Assembly: GCF_030817275.1 (NCBI RefSeq)
Contig: NZ_JAUSZD010000002.1
Location: forward strand, 5,022,001 to 5,086,000
Reading direction: 5' to 3'
From: Paenibacillus sp. V4I7
Lineage (GTDB): Bacteria; Bacillota; Bacilli; Paenibacillales; NBRC-103111
Length of the DNA: 64,000 nt
A model generated the notes under the pieces. That model worked only from the letters and a program-made list of their open reading frames with translations. It was not told the origin of the DNA and did not search any database. The stretch's first letter is position 1, and each line of letters opens with the position of its first letter. Shown one piece after another: positions 4,086 to 21,602 of the stretch. A program made the translations under genes and the position numbers.

Positions 4086-6149
4086 TCAGACGCCGAACTT
4101 ATCTGCCAGCCTCTTGGCCAACTCGTCATCCGAAAGAGGATTGCGGTGCGTGTTCTCCAAATAAATATATTTCTCCGTTTCCGGCATCAGAAACTGCTTG
4201 TACCAAGCGAAGAAATCGGGGCTGTCGCCATGCATGCGAAGCCAGCGGCGAAGCGTGTCCATGTTTTGCACTGTGCTCTCGATATTCGTCAGCCAGTCCG
4301 CCCGGAAGAAGTTCGCCCACTTCCCGTGCTCGGCTTCCTGCAGAGCGATCTCGCCCCTCCGATACTTCCACATCGCCTGCGAAGCATAAACGAACGCCAG
4401 CGGATAGTTGCCTTCCAGGTAAGCGGAGTACGATTTTCCCAATGAGTCAAAGCCCTCGCAGCCGGACAGATGCAGCTCGACATGCAAAAGCAAATGATCT
4501 TTCAGCCGAAGGCGGTCCTGTTCCGAGAGCTCCGGAAGCAGCCGTTCGATATGCTCCTTCAGCTCGAGCCAGCCCGGAACGGCATCGGCGCACTTCCGGC
4601 GAAACCATTCGACTTGCTCCGGAAAATCAACGTCCCCCGCCGCCCAATACAAGCGTACATGCGGTTGATCCGATTTCCCCTGAAGCCAATGTCCGACGAT
4701 TATGCGGGCCGGATGATGATAGAACTCATCTCCCGCCCGGTCGTCTTCGTTCGGACCGTACGGAATCGTCCGTCGCGCATAGTCGCAGAACATCGCGGCG
4801 ATTTCTGGCGAACCCGAGGGGAACATCCGGCTGACAAACGCCCCAAGATGCTCTTCCGCATCCGCTTCTCCCCGCATCCACAATTCGCGTATCAAATCCA
4901 GCGTATAAACGTGCGGCCGGATGTTACCGCTGTTGACGAGCAGGTAATCCTTCGCTCCGGCCCGAAACGCCCCCTCTATCTCTCCTCTGACCAAATCGGC
5001 CGAAGCTGGGAATAAAGTTAAATGATTGGAGGCTTGAAGATCGTGAAACGTTACATGGTAGTAAATGCCATGCTTACCTTTTTCTTGAAGATCAGGCAAG
5101 GCCGGAACGCGATGGTTCTCGTTGCCGTTGCGCCGTGAAACCATCTTGCCGTACCCATTGTCCGCCCAAATCTTAATAATATCGTCCGGAATTGTGATAT
5201 GACCCGCTTTATACAATTCCGAGATCTCCCCATACAACGCTACGCAACACTGCGGATCGGCCACCTTGCCTCGAACCATTTCATATTGTTTGCGCACGAC
5301 TCGGCTGATCATTTCACCGCGCTTCTCCGGCGTGTCGAATGCGGGATCCTGTACCCAAAAAGGCTGATCTCCTTGTCCGCGGAATGATAGAACCCAAACA
5401 ATGTTACGGTCCTTCTGCTTCTCGATCGCTTCCTCCCATAAGGTCTCGAACAGCTCCGGGTTCTCTTGATAGCTTGCTTTCTTTCCTTCATAAGCTCTCA
5501 GAAACATCTCGGCACCCAAAGGCTCGGCATGGTGGTGGGTAACCCATAGTCCCATCTCCGCCGCCAGATCAGCATGAATCCCGTGCTTTGGCAGATCGGT
5601 TCCTGGTATGACCATATTCCCTCCGCAGCGCAGCAACGCTTCGAAGACCGGCTGCCATACCTCGCGAGTCGGAGGGTATTTCTCCTTCCAGCCGATCAGA
5701 CACACCTCGTCATTGACGAACCAGCCGCGGAACCGGACGAACGGTTCCGACGAATCATAATCATCAGTTGGAAGCTCTATATGGCTGCGCCTCTTGGGAG
5801 GCAGGTCAGCCCAGAACCAGAATGGATCGACGCTGAGATACTTTCCGCTGTACTCGAGCATGCCGTAGACCAGTCCGAGATCGTCGCCCGCAGCAATGTG
5901 AAGTTCCGTTCTGCTGCCGTCCTTGACGAAGCGGAAGCAATACGCCTCCGGACGTGCCGGACACCGGTCCTCAGGTACCGCGTAGCGGAAAACCACGTCT
6001 GCCCGCTCCTCCTCTCCCAAGTCGATGGTCGAAGCAGCGCCCAGAACCTGTTCATGGTCACGCTTCACCATTTCCCAAGCATGGCGGATAGGCGAAGCCG
6101 GATCCGACGGAATGCGGTAAGTCGTGTTCCTGTCAATGATAAATGCCAA
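4086..6149 (-). CDS. GH115 family alpha-glucuronidase-like enzyme
   Basis: GH115 enzymes remove 4-O-methyl-glucuronic acid from xylan. Visible family features are RGWFVNDE (141-148), GGNMVIPGTD (176-185) and the HHHAEP motif (205-210) at the barrel, plus VLSFRGQGDQPFW (253-265). At 687 residues it is shorter than many GH115 enzymes (commonly 800 or more), lacking extra C-terminal domains. No signal peptide is seen, consistent with action on imported aldouronic oligosaccharides. It lies 28 bases after the second permease of locus 1, and its presence makes glucuronoxylan the most likely substrate of that locus. A fragment of a second copy persists at 2174-2342. Exact specificity within the family is inferred. 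Confidence 0.85.
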   Translation of the reverse strand: MAFIIDRNTTYRIPSDPASPIRHAWEMVKRDHEQVLGAASTIDLGEEERADVVFRYAVPEDRCPARPEAYCFRFVKDGSRTELHIAAGDDLGLVYGMLEYSGKYLSVDPFWFWADLPPKRRSHIELPTDDYDSSEPFVRFRGWFVNDEVCLIGWKEKYPPTREVWQPVFEALLRCGGNMVIPGTDLPKHGIHADLAAEMGLWVTHHHAEPLGAEMFLRAYEGKKASYQENPELFETLWEEAIEKQKDRNIVWVLSFRGQGDQPFWVQDPAFDTPEKRGEMISRVVRKQYEMVRGKVADPQCCVALYGEISELYKAGHITIPDDIIKIWADNGYGKMVSRRNGNENHRVPALPDLQEKGKHGIYYHVTFHDLQASNHLTLFPASADLVRGEIEGAFRAGAKDYLLVNSGNIRPHVYTLDLIRELWMRGEADAEEHLGAFVSRMFPSGSPEIAAMFCDYARRTIPYGPNEDDRAGDEFYHHPARIIVGHWLQGKSDQPHVRLYWAAGDVDFPEQVEWFRRKCADAVPGWLELKEHIERLLPELSEQDRLRLKDHLLLHVELHLSGCEGFDSLGKSYSAYLEGNYPLAFVYASQAMWKYRRGEIALQEAEHGKWANFFRADWLTNIESTVQNMDTLRRWLRMHGDSPDFFAWYKQFLMPETEKYIYLENTHRNPLSDDELAKRLADKFGV

Positions 6150-8074: not shown

Positions 8075-9616
8075 TTATTTGCTTTTATATTGGGCGTAGG
8101 CGTCGTTCATTTCCTGAATGATCTTATCGCCGCCGCCCGCTTTCCAAGCCGCGATCGCCTTGTCGATGCTTTCAACAGGCTCCTGCCCGACTACGATTTT
8201 GAGCTGGGTTTCCTTGAATTTCGTATCGAGGTCCTTCCCTAGCTTCGTGTTGGTTTCCGAATATATTTCCAAGCCGCCGGATTCGTTCTTCCAAGGATAT
8301 TTGGCATTGTTCTTATTGTAAGTTTCGTCGAACTTGGCTACCTCCGGATCCGTCCAGCGGAAATTCCCGAGGTTCGGATCAGCGCGCAAGAAAAACCAGT
8401 TGTTCATAATCCGCGGAAGGTCCGTATCGATGAGCGGCGTTGCCGTATATTTGCCATCAGCCGCCTTCGTATAGTGAACGCCCTCGATCCCGCTCTTCAT
8501 AATATCCGTGCCTTCGTCGGTTACCCACCAATCAAGCAGCTTCAGGATGCGCTGCTGTTTCTTGGCGTCGATTTTGCTGTTGATCACGACTTTATTGGTT
8601 CCGACCAAGCTCGTCGGATTGCCGCGAAGACCGGTAGGTCCGATCGGTGGAGCGAGCTGGACCAATTGTGCGTTCGGGTCGATTTTTTTCAGCTTTTCGG
8701 TATCCGTCCTCAGTCCAAGAGGGTGGTGGGTCCAAATGCCCGACTTGCCTCCCTGAAACAGCTCATAGACGTTGTTGCCTTTCTTGCTGAGAAAATCCTT
8801 GTCCAGAACGCCCTCCTCATACATTTTGCGAAGATAGCCGAGGAATTCTTTCTGCTCCTTGGACTGCACATTCTGGGGGATCAGCTTGCCGTCCACCAGC
8901 TTCCAGCCGTTGGCGAGGCCAAAAGCAGCCCGCAATTGGGCGGTGTTCGCCCCTAATTCTTGGTCTGTGGTGAAGCCGACTGTATCCTTCTTCCCGTTCT
9001 TGTCCGGATCGTTCAGCGCAAACGCCTTCATGATCTGATAAAATTCATCGACGCCAACCGTCTCTTCCTTCGGCATCGGCAGCCCTACATTGCGGATCCA
9101 GTCGGCCCGAATTTGATAGCTGTCCCGGACCTCAATTCCCCACGATGGCATCCCGAATAACTTCCCCTGCGGGTTCAGCAACTTCCATTGTTCATCCGGC
9201 CACGCCTTGGCCAGATTTGGGTACTTGTCCAGATGAGAGGCAAAATCCATGAAAACCCCCTCATTCTGCCACTTGATGAAATTGTCCGACGTGACTCGAT
9301 ACATGTCCGGCAATTCGCCCGATGCGGCCAATACATTCAATTTGTCCTTGTATGTCGGGCCGTCCGTCCACATGATCTTCATCTCGATATTAAATTTCTC
9401 GTTCAAATACTTGATGGTAGGGTGGTCTTCCCTCCACTTTCCTCCGCTCCACGATTCCGGCATAAAAGAGATTGTCAGCTTTTCTTTCATGTCATCCGCG
9501 ACACCGGCATTGTCCGTCTTTCCCCCGGTGTCTCCCGCTTGACCGTTCCCGGAACAGCCGGCTATAACGCCAGCAGCCAGTACCCCTGTGAGCAGAAGTG
9601 CTATTTGTTTTCTCAT
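8075..9616 (-). CDS. Extracellular sugar-binding lipoprotein (LipO type), locus 1
   Basis: This 513-residue family-1 solute-binding protein begins with a lipoprotein signal peptide; the lipobox is AAGVIAGC with acylated Cys near residue 20. The mature protein is the large two-lobed form typical of LipO/YtcQ proteins of Paenibacillus and Bacillus, with a calcium-loop-like DPDKNGKKDTVG segment. It would sit on the outer face of the membrane and deliver oligosaccharides to the two permeases downstream. The start at 9616 was chosen because GGAGGGG lies about 6 bases upstream; an upstream in-frame start would destroy the signal peptide. A perfect hairpin separates it from yesM. Confidence 0.93.
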   Translation of the reverse strand: MRKQIALLLTGVLAAGVIAGCSGNGQAGDTGGKTDNAGVADDMKEKLTISFMPESWSGGKWREDHPTIKYLNEKFNIEMKIMWTDGPTYKDKLNVLAASGELPDMYRVTSDNFIKWQNEGVFMDFASHLDKYPNLAKAWPDEQWKLLNPQGKLFGMPSWGIEVRDSYQIRADWIRNVGLPMPKEETVGVDEFYQIMKAFALNDPDKNGKKDTVGFTTDQELGANTAQLRAAFGLANGWKLVDGKLIPQNVQSKEQKEFLGYLRKMYEEGVLDKDFLSKKGNNVYELFQGGKSGIWTHHPLGLRTDTEKLKKIDPNAQLVQLAPPIGPTGLRGNPTSLVGTNKVVINSKIDAKKQQRILKLLDWWVTDEGTDIMKSGIEGVHYTKAADGKYTATPLIDTDLPRIMNNWFFLRADPNLGNFRWTDPEVAKFDETYNKNNAKYPWKNESGGLEIYSETNTKLGKDLDTKFKETQLKIVVGQEPVESIDKAIAAWKAGGGDKIIQEMNDAYAQYKSK

Positions 9617-13051: not shown

Positions 13052-14458
13052 TCATCCAGAGCATCTTGTTCGAAAAGGGGCAGCACAAATACACCCTCCT
13101 AGCCTAGCCAGGTACCTGGCTATTCGTTTGAGGTTCTGCGCGACACTTGTCATCAAGGTCTGCTCTTGCACACCTTTTCGTCCCCGGAACCGGCAACGGC
13201 GAAGCCCGTAGAGTTCTTTGGACTCTGCGAAACTTCGCTCAATGGTTTCCTTGCGTTTAGCATAAAGTTGTCGGCCGACCTCGCTTTGTGTGTGTGCGGT
13301 CACATGTTCCTTGTACACTTCCCATACGTGTCGTCCCATTTCGCGACGTTCTTCTGAAGCTGTACATTGGCCAAAGAGTGGGCAGTTCTTGCATGTTTCC
13401 CCCTCTGTGTGATATATCTTCTCCCCTGTTCGCTCCGTCGTGTAATAGATCATCTCCTGGTTTGCAGGACAGCGATAGACATCTTTGTCAGCGTCATAGG
13501 TAAATTGTTCTTTAGAAAAAATTCCTTTACGAGCGGGTATTTTACGCGGCGCAATCACACCCATGATGCTCATCTCTTCTAATTTCTTGCACACGTACGC
13601 ACCCTTGTATCCGGAATCTAGTATGACGGCTTCAATGTTTTCCTGCCAGCCAAACGTTTCTTGCTGACGCTGTAATCGGTCAATGTAAACCGTAGAATCG
13701 TTCACATTTCCAGGGGTGACAAACGAATCCGTGATGATGTTGAATTTAGCATCAACCGTCCGATGCTCCAAATAAAAGAAACCTTCTGGTTTTCCTTTAC
13801 GTTTCATATAACCACTGTCCGGATCCGTTTTGCTTACTATGTGACGTTCCTTTGGCCGTTCGGATGAGTCCGGTGCCAGTTCTTTTTGCCCATGTTTCTT
13901 GCGTTCTTCATTTACCGCCTGCTCCAGCTCTTCTAGATAAGCAGAGGGCGCTTTGGCGAGTTCTTGCATCGTGTACTTGTTTATATTCGCACTCGCCTGC
14001 ATGTGAGTGGAGTCTGTTACAAGCAGTCTTCCTGCAACCATACGATGGGAAATTGCCAGTCGAACAACTTCATCGAACACATCTTGAAACACACTGCCCG
14101 GAAAGCGGTGGTGCCGGTTCCAACTAATGGTGCTGTGATGCGGAACAGGATCTCTTAGTGAAAGACCGAGGAACCAGCGATAGGCGTTGTTGACTATGAT
14201 ATCCTGCTCTAGCTGCCGCTCCGAGCGAACACCAAATAGATAGCCGATCAGCATCATTTTAAACAATCGAATTGGGTCAATGGATGGTCGCCCGTGAGTC
14301 GGATGATAGTAATCCTTTACTTTATCCGTGATAAAAGAGAAGTCAATATGTCGCTGAAGCAAGCGAACGAGATGGTTATCTGGTACCAGTTCATCCAGAT
14401 AAACCATTTCGTAACTCATCTGAGGATTTTCCTTATCGCTATGCAACAATACGACCAC
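13052..14458 (-). CDS. IS1182-family transposase
   Basis: This 468-residue DDE transposase has the N-terminal DUF772-like region (HGRPSIDPIRLFKMMLIGY, FGVRSERQLEQDI), first Asp in LLVTDSTHMQASAN, second Asp in AVILDSGYKGAYVCKKL, and a Cys-containing insertion (CPANQEM, CKNCPLFGQC) before the final YAKRKETIERSFAESKE with the catalytic Glu. The length is normal for the family and no internal stop is seen, so it may be functional. GTG at 14458 follows GAGAAAG; starts slightly further downstream are possible. Confidence 0.93.
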   Translation of the reverse strand: MVVLLHSDKENPQMSYEMVYLDELVPDNHLVRLLQRHIDFSFITDKVKDYYHPTHGRPSIDPIRLFKMMLIGYLFGVRSERQLEQDIIVNNAYRWFLGLSLRDPVPHHSTISWNRHHRFPGSVFQDVFDEVVRLAISHRMVAGRLLVTDSTHMQASANINKYTMQELAKAPSAYLEELEQAVNEERKKHGQKELAPDSSERPKERHIVSKTDPDSGYMKRKGKPEGFFYLEHRTVDAKFNIITDSFVTPGNVNDSTVYIDRLQRQQETFGWQENIEAVILDSGYKGAYVCKKLEEMSIMGVIAPRKIPARKGIFSKEQFTYDADKDVYRCPANQEMIYYTTERTGEKIYHTEGETCKNCPLFGQCTASEERREMGRHVWEVYKEHVTAHTQSEVGRQLYAKRKETIERSFAESKELYGLRRCRFRGRKGVQEQTLMTSVAQNLKRIARYLARLGGCICAAPFRTRCSG

Positions 14459-15134: not shown

Positions 15135-16349
15135 TCAAGGACTTATTGCTTCGTGTAAAATCATTAATTCTTTGTTGAGCTCGGAACGAAGCTTGGCATC
15201 TATTTCGTTTAATTGAATGATAGAAGGCGAATTCAGGTCTTGAAGCTTGTTTGGGATTTCCGCGTTCCATATCTCCTCGGCTCTTCGGTCCAAAGGTGTT
15301 ACCCATATGCCGGGAAGCCGATCGTACCACAGCTTGCCTTCCAGGCTATCACGGTACGGGGCTTCTTGCGTCATGGAATGCTGGATATAGTCCCACGCCT
15401 CCGGCTTATTCTCACTTTTCTTATGCATGAGGATCGCTGCTCCTCCTCTGGTGACATAGCTGCCCAGTGGCAGCCGGGTCATTTTCCATTGCCCGCTTGT
15501 TTCCGGACTCCATTCCTTAAGCAGGTATTTCCCCCACTCTCCCCAATACAGCATAACGAGCTCTCCGTTACGAATGGCATTTTTTCCGTTATCGTCCCAT
15601 ATATTCAGATTTCTGACGAGGCCTTCCGCTTGGATGGCCTTGGCTGTGTTTAAGGCATTCACCATGCGTGCATCGTTCCGTGGATTTTCCTTATTCCTGC
15701 CCAAATAGCCAAGTCCCCCTGATACCATATAGGTCGGATCCGTAGCATAGCTGAAGATCCAATGGCTATGCTGTTTCAGTACTTTAGCCATATGCACCCA
15801 GTGAGCGGGATCCTCCAGATAATCACCTAATGCTTTCGGTTCAGGAGGAAATCCGTATTTCTCCAAGATATCTGCTCTATAAAATGTAAATTCGACGGGA
15901 AGATCCTTCGGTATAGCAATAAGCTTCGTGCCATCCAAGGATTTATAGGATGTCAGGTCCAGCTTGGGGAACCATTCATCTGTTATTCTCGATTCAGCCC
16001 GATAAGGGTCTTGACTAAGATCCTCGAACAAATCCAGGTCGTTTAGCTGCCTGATCCAAACATTATCCACGATAACCAGATCAGGACTGGTTTCACCGGC
16101 TAATGCGTAACTAAGGTCTTCCCCTTTTGTCTTGACCCATTCTACATTCTGGTCTGGATGGGCTTGACGAAAGGATTGCGTAATAGGCGTTTGTTCATCG
16201 ATCGTAGCGATAATCCGTATAGACTTCTTTGCTTCTGTTGCTTTAGCCGCTGGCTGTGCATACTCTTCACTCTTGGGCATAATCTCATCGCAGCCGCTTA
16301 AAGCCATCACGAGAAGAAGTATAATGGTAATTCCGCCTGATCTTTTCAT
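15135..16349 (-). CDS. Orphan family-1 solute-binding lipoprotein
   Basis: This 404-residue protein has a lipoprotein signal peptide (lipobox VMALSGC, Cys about residue 20) and a two-lobe sugar-binding fold with motifs such as SPDLVIVDNVWI, IPKDLPVEFTFYRADIL and GELVMLYWGEWGKY. It is clearly shorter than the 500-590 residue LipO-type proteins in this window and resembles classic maltose/multiple-sugar binding proteins. There are no permease genes beside it. Instead its ATG overlaps the stop codon of the GGDEF-EAL gene in ATGA, so both come from one transcript in a fixed ratio. That suggests a sensing role on the outer membrane face, handing a ligand signal to the c-di-GMP enzyme, rather than transport; this is inference. 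Confidence 0.85.
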   Translation of the reverse strand: MKRSGGITIILLLVMALSGCDEIMPKSEEYAQPAAKATEAKKSIRIIATIDEQTPITQSFRQAHPDQNVEWVKTKGEDLSYALAGETSPDLVIVDNVWIRQLNDLDLFEDLSQDPYRAESRITDEWFPKLDLTSYKSLDGTKLIAIPKDLPVEFTFYRADILEKYGFPPEPKALGDYLEDPAHWVHMAKVLKQHSHWIFSYATDPTYMVSGGLGYLGRNKENPRNDARMVNALNTAKAIQAEGLVRNLNIWDDNGKNAIRNGELVMLYWGEWGKYLLKEWSPETSGQWKMTRLPLGSYVTRGGAAILMHKKSENKPEAWDYIQHSMTQEAPYRDSLEGKLWYDRLPGIWVTPLDRRAEEIWNAEIPNKLQDLNSPSIIQLNEIDAKLRSELNKELMILHEAISP

Positions 16350-18961
16350 GGAGTGCCCCTTCTTTCATGGGATGTTATCTTCTGATCTCGCAGCAGCTCG
16401 GTCAGCTGAACAGCAGGCATTGGCTTCCAATGGTAATATCCTTGCTGAAGGGAGCAGGACATGCTCTGAAGAGCCGCCATGTCCTCCTGATCTTCGATTC
16501 CTTCGGCAATGACGCTCCAGCCTCGCGCGCCCGCTAACGATATCAGCGTCTGTACGATAGCCATATTGCCCGGCTCCTCCCTCATATCCTGAATAAAGGA
16601 ACGGTCAATTTTGAAGCCGTCGATCGGCAGCTTTTTGAGCATGGTTAAGGACGAATAGCCGGTGCCGAAATCATCGATCCATATTCGAATCCCTTGCTGC
16701 TGCAGCTTCTGCAGGGCTTCGATCATTTTTTCCGTTTTTTTAACGAACACTTCCTCGGTAATTTCTACATCCAAGCATTGGGATGGGAGATTCATTTCAT
16801 CTAGTACCCGGCTTAAATAAACAGCCGCGTGATGCTTGACCAGCTGCGTTGGCGATAAATTTATGGCGAGACGCATATAATCGAATCCTTCTTCCAGCCA
16901 GTCTTTCAATTGCCGGCAAGCTTCGCGAATGACCCATTCTCCCAATACCCCGATCAAACCGCTGTTTTCCGCTACGGATATTACCTTGATCGGCGGAATC
17001 CGCCCGAGTGTTGAATGATCCCAGCGAAGAAGAGCCTCGGCTCCTATAATGCTGCTGCTTTGTGTATCCATAATAGGCTGGTAATGAAGGGAAAGCTCAT
17101 TTCGTTCCAGCGCTTTACGAAGTTCGAATTCTAAAACCATATTCTCCGAGACCGTACCCGTTGCCTGAGGCTTGTAAAATCGATATATGTTCCCTCCCTT
17201 ACCCTTGGCCAGATACATAGCCGCATCCGCATGTTTCACCACGGTATCCATCGTTACGCCATCTTGGGGAGCGAGACTAATTCCTATACTCCCGCCAATG
17301 AACAACTCGTGCTCCTGTACCTTGAAAGAGCTGGCGAATGCTTCCAACACGCATACCGCCAGCTGACCTGCCGCCTCCTTATTGGCCTCCTTCATAACAA
17401 TGACAAACTCGTCTCCACCAAGACGGGCTATAAACGCCCGGTTCCCAATGGCTTCCGTTAAGCGTAAAGTTACCTGCTTAAGCAAACCGTCACCGATTCC
17501 ATGCCCTAAAGTATCATTGATCTGTTTAAAACGGTCCAAATCAATAAACATCACAGCTGTACATGCTCCGGTTCGTTCGTTTTGACGAAGCAGCTGGTCT
17601 AGATGCTCGTTAAAGTGCCTGCGATTAGGCAGGCCGGTCAGCGAGTCGAAATAAGCCTGCTCTTTGGATTCACCCAGCATCTGCTGAATCTTTTCCGTCA
17701 CGATCCGAAAATTATGGATAAGCGAATGCACTTCCCCGATATCCGAATGAATCCAGTGGATCTCTTTTCCTTCCTTAATCCGGTTCGGCAGATCATGGGA
17801 TAATGCGGCAAGCTTCATGATGGACTTGATAATGAACCGGTGCAGGAATAAAGCAAAGACTCCAATGATGATGACCGTATAAAGAACATTGACCGATTGG
17901 GATATATAGTAGATCGTCACTTCCCGGACATAACTTTCTGTGGACAATTTTACGTACAGTGTGAAGTTTCCTAATTCTATCTGATGCACGAGTGCGAAGC
18001 TTCGTTCATGAATGCCAGGAACATCGTTACGCCGGTGCGGCTGTTCCCAGATAACCAAGGAATCCGACATTCGTGTCCAATTGTGCTTATCCATCCAGGG
18101 GAAGCTCTCAAGCTGTTTGTTGGTTGACAGAATGAAATGCCCCCGTTTATGAAGCAATATGGCTTCACCGGCAGTCCCCAAAGAACTGGTGCGAAGTAGC
18201 TCGCGAAAGGCAGCTATTTGCAGCGAGCTCCGCAGCTCCAGCTTGAGCATCTGATCCGGAGACCAAGAAGCGTAAGCTATACGGAGCGATTCAGTCAAAT
18301 GCTTCATTTGCTGCGCAAGATCAAACTTAAAACTGCGCTCGGCGCTCTTCCCTGTATTTATGATGAAAAGAAGCGAGGAGCCGATAATACTGAACAGACT
18401 TAAGTAGATTAAGATGCCGGTCAGGCTGATTTTGCTTGTCCCGTTAGTATGAATAGCTGATCTTCTCATGTAAATGCTGATTGATTTATACAAGATATCG
18501 GCCATCAATGCGTTGAACAGCAAATTGACAACTAAAGTACATACATATAGCCCAATTTCCTGGTCTAAGTGACCGTTCTTCCAGTAATATAGCAAGCAAA
18601 TACTCGGTACGCCTATACCAAGCCAGAATATAACGCCCGGCAGCAAAACCCCATTTCTCGAAGGTCTATTGCTGCTATACATCATGACAAAGGCGATCTC
18701 TAAAGTCAGGAGCAAAAGAAGAATATAGCCTTCATGAAGGAAGAATACAGCAGCAGTATGCACGATCAAAGTTAAAGCAGCGGATTTTTTCCAACCGAAC
18801 AGATGATAGGACAGAAGTATAAATAGACTGGCGAAAAATAACTGCAGGCTAAATACTAAACTCACAGGATATGCGTAGGAAAGAAAAGCAAGTGCTCCCA
18901 ACAGCCAATAGGTCCACAAAGACTTGGACATAAGTGTGACTGTTCTATGAGATAGAGTCAT
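16346..18961 (-). CDS. Membrane-bound GGDEF-EAL c-di-GMP enzyme
   Basis: About 871 residues. Five to seven hydrophobic helices occupy roughly 10-215, then an extracytoplasmic region (about 215-350), a final helix (VNVLYTVIIIGVFALFLHRF) and a HAMP-like linker, a GGDEF domain (ARLGGDEFVIV intact) and an EAL domain. The EAL catalytic set looks complete: GAEALLRW, LAINLSPTQLV, VEITEEVF, WIDDFGTGYSSL, DGFKIDRSF and VIAEGIEDQ. The inhibitory RxxD site before GGDEF is not conserved (RAFI). It could both make and break c-di-GMP. The start at 18961 follows GAGG at 9 bases; an ATG 15 bases earlier is possible. It overlaps the binding-lipoprotein gene downstream. Confidence 0.9.
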   Translation of the reverse strand: MTLSHRTVTLMSKSLWTYWLLGALAFLSYAYPVSLVFSLQLFFASLFILLSYHLFGWKKSAALTLIVHTAAVFFLHEGYILLLLLTLEIAFVMMYSSNRPSRNGVLLPGVIFWLGIGVPSICLLYYWKNGHLDQEIGLYVCTLVVNLLFNALMADILYKSISIYMRRSAIHTNGTSKISLTGILIYLSLFSIIGSSLLFIINTGKSAERSFKFDLAQQMKHLTESLRIAYASWSPDQMLKLELRSSLQIAAFRELLRTSSLGTAGEAILLHKRGHFILSTNKQLESFPWMDKHNWTRMSDSLVIWEQPHRRNDVPGIHERSFALVHQIELGNFTLYVKLSTESYVREVTIYYISQSVNVLYTVIIIGVFALFLHRFIIKSIMKLAALSHDLPNRIKEGKEIHWIHSDIGEVHSLIHNFRIVTEKIQQMLGESKEQAYFDSLTGLPNRRHFNEHLDQLLRQNERTGACTAVMFIDLDRFKQINDTLGHGIGDGLLKQVTLRLTEAIGNRAFIARLGGDEFVIVMKEANKEAAGQLAVCVLEAFASSFKVQEHELFIGGSIGISLAPQDGVTMDTVVKHADAAMYLAKGKGGNIYRFYKPQATGTVSENMVLEFELRKALERNELSLHYQPIMDTQSSSIIGAEALLRWDHSTLGRIPPIKVISVAENSGLIGVLGEWVIREACRQLKDWLEEGFDYMRLAINLSPTQLVKHHAAVYLSRVLDEMNLPSQCLDVEITEEVFVKKTEKMIEALQKLQQQGIRIWIDDFGTGYSSLTMLKKLPIDGFKIDRSFIQDMREEPGNMAIVQTLISLAGARGWSVIAEGIEDQEDMAALQSMSCSLQQGYYHWKPMPAVQLTELLRDQKITSHERRGTP

Positions 18962-19078
18962 GGATAGCATCCTCATTCGGTTTAGGATTTAAGTAAATTT
19001 CTAGAATTCAATCTACCCTTTTCGACATCATACATAGCAGGCTCCTTTTAAAATCGTTCTTAGAAAAGGCGCAACAAG

Positions 19079-19815: not shown

Positions 19816-21138
19816 ATGGCATGGACAGACGGACTGACTGGACGCATAATCCTACAAAACGCCTCGGGTTATGAGGAATCAAGACGAAATTTTAATGCTC
19901 GCTTCTCCAAATACCCAAAAGTGATTGTCTACTGTCAGACTGGTCAGGATGCTGCCAACGCCGTTCTATGGGTACGCAAACAAAAGATACCTTTTAGCGT
20001 ACGCTCTGGCGGCCACAGCTATGAAGCATTTTCGATTGTTGACGGTGGCCTAATTATTGATGTCAGCGATTTACTGCACCTGCGAATCGACAAAGCGAGG
20101 GATACTGTGAGCATTGGCGCTGGATTTCGAATGCAGCATTTGTACGAAGCCCTATGGAAAAATGGATTGACCATTCCCGGCGGAACTTGCCCTACGATAG
20201 GCGTGTCTGGGTTGACGCTTGGCGGAGGTTATGGTTTTTTATCTCGATTTTTTGGCATGACTTGTGACAATTTACTCGAAATAGAGATGGTTAATGCGCA
20301 AGGAAAGATTATTCATGCGAATGAAAAGTACAATAGTGATCTGCTTTGGGCATGCCGTGGCGGAGGAGATGGGAGTTTTGGCGTAATCACATCCATTACT
20401 TACCGCGTGTTTCCAATCGGAGATGTTGCACTTTGCAAGTTGACGTGGAATTTTTCTGACCTTGAAAATGTAGTACGCTTTTGGCAGACATGGGCTCCGA
20501 ATACCGATACCCGCTTGACTTCCCAGCTCAAGCTTCCGGCGCTAAATCAAGGCGATATTGAATCTTTCAGCGTGTTTGTCGGCTTAGAAAAAGAGCTGCG
20601 ACGCTTCGTATGTCCTTTGAAAGAGGCAGTTCCACCTAAAATGTTCTCGATCCGCTCAGCTTCCTGGATCGATGCCGCACGCAGGATAGCTGGAATGCCG
20701 ACATGGCAAGTCAAGTTTAAACATTCATCTGCCTACGCTTACGAACCCTTCTCGGACGCCGCGCTTAATATGCTGATCCAAAATTTAAAGAACTCTTCAG
20801 GCACCAGCAACTTTGTCGAACTTAACGCTTATGGGGGCGCGATTTTTGAGGTGCCACCGGATGCGACGGCGTTTGTGCACCGAAAAGCTCTGTTTGGGAT
20901 GCAGTATCAAACCTACTGGGAGCAGGATTCGGAAGAGGTTAATAACATTCTTTGGGTTAAACGGTTCCGGGAGTCTATGCTTCCTTTTACACAAGGCGCG
21001 TATCGTAACTATAGTGATCAACTAATTGATAACTGGCAGACTGCTTACTTTGGAGAGAACATTATCAGGTTAAAGCAGGTAAAACAAGTCTATGATCCAG
21101 AAAATCTGTTCCGCTTCAAACAGAGCATTCCTCCTTAG
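19816..21138 (+). CDS. Berberine-bridge-like FAD-dependent oxidase
   Basis: This 440-residue flavoprotein has a PCMH-type FAD-binding domain with both residues typical of bicovalent FAD attachment: His in [12 protein letters not shown] and Cys in [19 protein letters not shown]. The C-terminal BBE segment is recognisable ([12 protein letters not shown], ending [16 protein letters not shown]). Relatives oxidise sugars, oligosaccharides or secondary metabolites with oxygen as acceptor. No signal peptide is seen. It is one of the few plus-strand genes here and is flanked by debris on both sides. AGGTG lies 8 bases before the ATG. A weak hairpin at 21138-21169 follows. Confidence 0.9.
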
Positions 21139-21602
21139 CAGCTAAAAGCAAATTTGTTTAGGTAGCTGCATAATAAATCATCTTTTGTAAGACCATATCT
21201 CTTCGTACAAGGAGGTGATACAGCATGAATCAACAAGGTTTGGCTTTTGCTCTTCTCTATTTTAAGCTGCACTTTATCCACGACATCGTCAGCTTCCGTA
21301 CCGAGAATGTCGATAAGCGTAATTTCATTCCCCTCTTTGTCCGTTCCGATGGGATCATGCAAGGACACATCTTTGCGCGTTTTCTTCAACGAACGCAGGT
21401 GCATCAAGATCTCGTTCTCAATACATCGAGCTGCGAATGTCGCGAGTTTCGTCCCTTTGTTAGGTGAGAACGACTCGATAGCTTTGATCAAGCCTATCGT
21501 CCCCCTCGAAATCAAATCCTCCAAATCTTCTCCTGTGTTATCGAATTTTTGACAATATGAACACGAAGCAACGTAAAATTCTATCCATAGAGCGACTTCC
21601 AT
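21135..21602 (-). pseudogene. sigK: Truncated remnant of sporulation sigma-K gene
   Basis: From about 21548 to 21246 the frame is almost pure sigma-K region 2 sequence: [67 protein letters not shown]. Upstream, [11 protein letters not shown]-like residues matching NLRLVAHIVKK lie in another frame, indicating loss of one A in a run of A residues. After KIEKSK the homology stops and unrelated residues follow to a TGA or TAA near 21135, so region 4 is missing. It cannot encode a working sigma factor. At the right-hand breakpoint, on the plus strand, a perfect AAGGAGGTGAT site and ATG (21225) begin a frame that immediately runs antisense into the remnant, which looks like another truncated gene start. 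Confidence 0.85.

Follow-up and report, generated by a model that had tools for sequence, protein, structure and literature searches.

Is a solute-binding lipoprotein encoded directly behind a membrane-bound GGDEF-EAL protein a stray transporter component, or is it the sensing part of a receptor that acts on cyclic di-GMP (c-di-GMP)? The question is raised by a gene pair of Paenibacillus sp. V4I7, which lies in a window of 64,000 nucleotides (the whole stretch of DNA that was analyzed; contig NZ_JAUSZD010000002.1, positions 5,022,001 to 5,086,000), numbered here from its first letter. Both genes are on the minus strand. The gene of the GGDEF-EAL protein, termed the receptor below, occupies positions 16346..18976 (876 aa), and the gene of the solute-binding protein (SBP), a lipoprotein of the SBP_bac_8/SBP_bac_1 type with a sugar-binding fold, follows at 15135..16349 (404 aa). 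The two genes probably encode one receptor in two pieces, in which the loaded lipoprotein would dock on an extracytoplasmic Cache-like domain of the membrane protein and shift the balance between its GGDEF and EAL activities.

The two reading frames share an ATGA on the minus strand (16346..16349), in which the TGA stop codon of the receptor gene comprises 16348-16346 and the ATG start codon of the lipoprotein gene 16349-16347. Many relatives have precisely this 4-nt overlap. A Shine-Dalgarno candidate, AAGGGG, is located 6 nt 5' of the lipoprotein ATG, and as each of the genes has its own Shine-Dalgarno-like sequence, the lipoprotein may be translated either through coupling or on its own. 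The longest open reading frame (ORF) of the receptor begins at 18976, and a GAGG precedes the third in-frame ATG at 18961, which a preliminary description of this DNA had taken as the start. As the spacing of this GAGG is suitable, a start at 18961 (871 aa) is as plausible as the one at 18976. The preliminary description had also listed the ATGA overlap, a lipobox, intact GGDEF and EAL catalytic residues, and a missing RxxD site, all of which we confirmed in the sequence, and it had singled out the lipoprotein gene as the only binding-protein gene of the window without permeases. Indeed, no permease gene lies beside the pair in the 64-kb window, and the other four binding-protein-like genes (at 8075, 28666, 45861, and 57548), of which Pfam scores only two, as SBP_bac_8, adjoin permease pairs. 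A promoter scan of the pair region gave fewer promoter-like sites than were found in shuffled sequence.

Within this one genome, the adjacency is uninformative because SBP_bac_1 genes (at least 139) and GGDEF loci (about 30) are so numerous. With roughly 7,500 genes, we estimate that about 0.5 such neighbors would occur by chance, and the pair could on this basis be a coincidence or a neutral inherited linkage that has no functional tie. Conservation was therefore examined from both partners. When each protein was searched separately in 100 related genomes, full-length relatives of the receptor (32-52% identity) adjoined the best SBP relatives in G072, G077, G033, G036, G054, G017, G062, G071, and G068, with two pairs each in G062 and G071 and with the G068 pair being recognized on a second look. 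A blind survey, in which only the SBP profile was run against named genomes, returned 40 loci, and in 35 of these the SBP gene was directly downstream, on the same strand, of a gene for a sensor that shares the N-terminal region of the receptor and has either GGDEF or GGDEF-EAL as output. Of the other five loci, three were permease-bearing transporter operons, and two were orphan genes of clostridial assemblies. The reverse survey used only the N-terminal region of the receptor as query and covered 395 genomes of the order, 125 of which were positive. Here, an SBP gene followed downstream at 36 of the 41 loci that combine a short extracytoplasmic domain with a GGDEF output. Pooled and freed of duplicates, both searches placed an SBP beside 60 of 65 short-domain GGDEF sensors (19 of the 60 have a GGDEF domain only), and the SBP gene was downstream in all 60 adjacent pairs.

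Carriers of the pair are found in Paenibacillus, Aquibacillus, Litchfieldia, Halalkalibacter, Evansella, Gracilibacillus, and Brevibacillus migulae, as well as in Clostridium saudiense, C. paraputrificum, Ruminiclostridium sufflavum, and Niameybacter, with halophilic Bacillaceae among them. Across these Bacilli and Clostridia, permeases are absent from the receptor-paired loci, so that the conserved permease-free adjacency in relatives, which had been proposed as a check, was indeed found. The pairing persists across families and classes in which identity is 25-35% and the flanking genes differ, and of 19 other GGDEF-EAL loci taken from the set of related genomes, none had an SBP neighbor. Once conservation across genomes is counted, the pairing is clearly beyond chance, and a mere coincidence or inherited neighborhood is highly improbable.

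A few loci deserve separate mention. The short sensor of G029 had been considered a pseudogene, but this view was dropped, as sensors of about 620 aa with a GGDEF domain only occur regularly, and in G029 it is just the SBP frame that is broken. At a G043 locus (L073:6775-8256), no SBP gene follows the sensor, and an unrelated SBP_bac_1 gene without a typical lipobox (BLASTP E-value of 0.12 against P0001) lies directly upstream; a partner swap is possible there, but we did not use it as evidence because SBP genes are common in such genomes. At a clostridial locus (L133:6569-9320), two related SBP genes stand in tandem after one sensor.

The N-terminal region of the receptor also occurs in other sensors. 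In a longer form, the extracytoplasmic domain joined to it has about 262 residues (about 150 in the short form) and scores as dCache_1 (E-value 6e-14). The N-terminal region is likewise shared by histidine kinases with the six-helix and Cache arrangement. An SBP neighbor was lacking in all four long (dCache) GGDEF-EAL forms and in all seven such kinases (L192, L193, L195, L197, L200, L202, and L203; three assigned by Pfam, the others by length and the lack of GGDEF), in small samples whose counts ignore phylogeny. As only the short-Cache GGDEF forms have this neighbor, the most economical explanation would be a short Cache domain that docks the SBP and a double Cache domain that senses directly.

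Since the lipoprotein belongs to a transport SBP family, it could also be an orphan component of an ATP-binding cassette (ABC) transporter that serves a distant permease and is co-transcribed with the GGDEF-EAL gene only because both respond to a shared condition. It has the SBP_bac_1/SBP_bac_8 fold and the lipobox of an SBP of a carbohydrate uptake (CUT-type) ABC transporter but lacks the cognate adjacent permeases. Close relatives do stand beside permeases (L075, L077, L136, L143, and L154), and the genome offers many permeases along with its large stock of SBP_bac_1 genes. Against this stand the dozens of permease-free pairs in Bacilli and Clostridia, the strict tie of the SBP to one family of sensor N-terminal regions with its absence beside larger or different sensing domains, and the co-divergence of the two partners. 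The distances of SBP and Cache domain correlate over 58 pairs (Mantel r 0.75), a value reached by none of 2000 label permutations and to which species relatedness contributes; after removal of the GGDEF distance, a partial r of 0.57 remained. In the two-pair genomes G062 and G071, nearest relatives matched pair by pair, and in G100, which has four pairs, they did so in two of the four. We thus regard a transporter role of the lipoprotein as quite unlikely, and the permease-free conserved pairing and the co-divergence support the core of the preliminary description, namely that a dedicated two-protein module is encoded here rather than part of a transporter.

Some observations weigh against a receptor in two pieces. 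Four loci of genus g40 (L171, L172, L177, and L191) have a short-Cache sensor without an adjacent SBP gene, and the SBP may therefore be dispensable or unlinked in this genus. The sensor is patchy, with 3 of 30 sampled genomes of the own genus being positive, and the SBP was found in 3 of 300 sampled genomes of the class at a strict threshold, one of these being a transporter-type relative. Furthermore, although the SBP tree clusters strongly by partner type, receptor-paired versus transporter-paired, a clade of 11 transporter-paired or unpaired SBPs is nested within the receptor-paired set, which indicates at least one change of partner. This clade permits a comparison of residues: Trp184, Met266, and Trp280 are kept in 93, 95, and 81% of the receptor-paired SBPs but in only 9, 27, and 27% of the nested transporter-paired clade, as expected for a different docking partner. 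Judged from these alignments, the three residues are candidate docking contacts.

The N-terminal membrane region of the receptor (residues ~20-163; 18488..18919, minus strand as for all features below) has about six transmembrane (TM) helices according to hydropathy and the AlphaFold2 model and is without Pfam match. A seventh helix (residues 188-206) and a further TM segment at residues ~357-383 enclose a stretch of about 145 extracytoplasmic residues. This segment (residues ~207-352; 17921..18358) resembles a single Cache domain in its position between TM segments, in the topology of the AlphaFold2 model, in which one long helix is followed by six strands, and in its longer homologues, which score as dCache_1. 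In the receptor itself, no Pfam Cache match was obtained, and Foldseek with the whole receptor returned GGDEF-EAL matches only and so left the extracytoplasmic domain unclassified. A HAMP-like or coiled linker connects the last TM helix to the GGDEF domain (residues 441-596; 17189..17656; Pfam E-value 1e-46), which has the canonical motif at residues 520-524. An RxxD at the inhibition site (I-site) is absent from all 14 aligned family members, including the receptor, which should therefore not be subject to product inhibition of that kind. In the EAL domain (residues 618-852; 16421..17125; E-value 4.5e-73), all ten catalytic positions examined are kept (E647, R651, N706, E738, D768, D769, K789, E825, E828, and Q845).

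The lipoprotein starts with the lipobox LSGC (16290..16301), whose Cys20 is followed by a flexible linker up to residue ~41, as judged by sequence and by the low predicted local distance difference test (pLDDT) values at residues 15-39. Of 59 partner SBPs, about 95% have kept the lipobox cysteine; a small receptor-paired clade without it (L182 and L183, with SBP genes at 4547 and 4527) seemingly has a membrane anchor or signal peptide instead. The AlphaFold2 model (mean pLDDT 88) shows a two-lobe SBP fold that Foldseek places in the same class as sugar SBPs. Searches of PDB sequences by phmmer and profile likewise found sugar SBPs (Lin1841, CebE, and MalE-like proteins), no PotD or PotF was among these matches, and no PotD was in the Foldseek top 50. 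Lin1841 (PDB 5ysb; beta-1,2-glucan oligosaccharide) and CebE (8bfy; cellotriose) are the nearest solved proteins in sequence and rank among the best fold matches, although they are ABC transporter components and share only 15-16% identity with the lipoprotein in the structural alignment. Sequence and fold relatives thus support the sugar-binding class that had been assigned before. SBP family motifs are retained, including the G-x-W and T-x-Y-R-x-D stretches, whose Trp and Tyr presumably align with sugar-contacting motifs of maltose-binding protein, which gives a lead. Some transporter-paired SBPs of the sister clade are encoded in operons that, read from sequence, resemble those for arabinose or arabinan utilization. 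As the relatives by sequence and fold bind sugars and the sister clade stands in such operons, a small oligosaccharide is our best guess for the predicted ligand.

These features also bear on a further alternative, in which the lipoprotein is a ligand-independent subunit that sits constitutively on the Cache domain and stabilizes or inhibits the enzyme, with the six-helix region or the envelope providing the signal. In its favor, the N-terminal membrane region shows conservation, too, and its distances follow those of the SBP no less closely than the Cache distances do (r 0.77 versus 0.75, 58 pairs). A ligand-free role should, however, erode the binding cleft, whereas the confident two-lobe fold and the G-x-W and T-x-Y-R-x-D motifs have been kept, and we therefore consider this explanation rather unlikely.

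For a receptor in two pieces, we envisage the following course from the observed gene structure, motifs, pairing, and co-divergence; docking, ligand, sign of the response, and downstream behavior, for which the preliminary description had proposed motility or biofilm on plant material, are what we infer. The lipidated Cys20 and the flexible linker would hold the lipoprotein on the outside of the membrane, where it would capture a solute from the surroundings, a small oligosaccharide being the most likely one. The closed, loaded lipoprotein, or the open form with opposite sign, would then dock on the single-Cache domain of the receptor, which is built in the order 6TM-Cache-HAMP-like-GGDEF-EAL. 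The docking movement would be relayed via the last TM helix and the linker and would shift c-di-GMP synthesis versus hydrolysis. Readers for such an output are present in the own genome, namely 18 c-di-GMP-I riboswitches above the gathering score (e.g., C2:7209625-7209711, L228) and five PilZ proteins, which make for a rich readout. The same riboswitch was found in none of 14 control genomes.

As to the surroundings of the pair, a DUF772/DDE transposase gene lies downstream (13052-14458, minus strand), and a divergently transcribed gene for an FAD-binding/BBE oxidase lies upstream (19816-21138, plus strand). It is followed by an ORF of 155 aa (21135-21602, minus strand) that has sigma-70 region 2 only and is possibly a truncated sigma factor gene.

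For most GGDEF/EAL proteins, no input is known. A census of c-di-GMP stimuli from 2022 contains one carbohydrate pathway, in which the phosphotransferase system (PTS) protein EIIA-Glc acts on PdeS, and one studied input domain with a binding-protein fold, the fused SBP_bac_3 of RmcA (PMC8846402). Judged by the literature searched, no SBP-gated c-di-GMP receptor has been described in Gram-positives and none that is gated by an oligosaccharide, and the system proposed here, if true, would be the first in both respects. As the input subunit would be a separable lipoprotein that can be screened for ligands, the signal becomes directly accessible. Moreover, the sensor variants with and without the partner amount to a natural experiment in which the shift of a Cache domain from direct sensing to sensing via a binding protein can be followed. 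There is about an even chance that the pairs of Paenibacillus, Bacillaceae, and Clostridia form a receptor class of Bacillota that uses a dedicated carbohydrate-binding lipoprotein as sensing subunit, has GGDEF only or GGDEF-EAL as alternative outputs, and, with an enlarged Cache domain, changes over to sensing directly.

We found no description of a Gram-positive SBP/GGDEF pair in a literature search that was not complete. The precedent is NspS-MbaA of Vibrio cholerae and Sinorhizobium meliloti, in which a non-transport SBP from an overlapping operon controls how far cyclase or phosphodiesterase activity prevails in MbaA (PMC8967002, PMC9993111); norspermidine-loaded NspS favors the cyclase, and its absence favors phosphodiesterase activity (PMC8967002). 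As there, an SBP gene and a GGDEF-EAL gene form one permease-free operon here. However, NspS is a soluble periplasmic polyamine SBP of the PotD type, whereas the SBP analyzed here is a Gram-positive lipoprotein of the sugar-binding class. In addition, nspS is upstream of mbaA, and the periplasmic domain of MbaA is flanked by two TM segments (PMC9993111). Here, the SBP gene comes second, and about six further TM helices precede the Cache domain of the receptor. As SBP type, gene order, and receptor topology differ, we place the pair outside the NspS-MbaA family even though it would work in a similar way.

In Vibrio parahaemolyticus, the periplasmic binding protein ScrB acts on the GGDEF-EAL membrane protein ScrC, and ScrABC includes the signal-making enzyme ScrA. 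The combination of a binding protein and a GGDEF-EAL membrane protein is the same as in our pair, which is not accompanied by an enzyme of the ScrA type. ArtI of Salmonella, in turn, is a transporter SBP. Work on ScrB-ScrC is cited among the SBP-activated c-di-GMP receptors (PMC9602780). In ArtI-STM1987, an SBP fold feeds a Cache-bearing c-di-GMP enzyme, and in RmcA of Pseudomonas, SBP_bac_3 is fused to the enzyme (PMC8846402). Both of these are proteobacterial with amino-acid ligands, and RmcA is a single protein, whereas our pair consists of two Gram-positive proteins with an SBP of the sugar class. SBP-driven c-di-GMP receptors are a known kind that has so far come from Gram-negatives, and the Paenibacillus pair most likely forms a receptor similar to them in principle.

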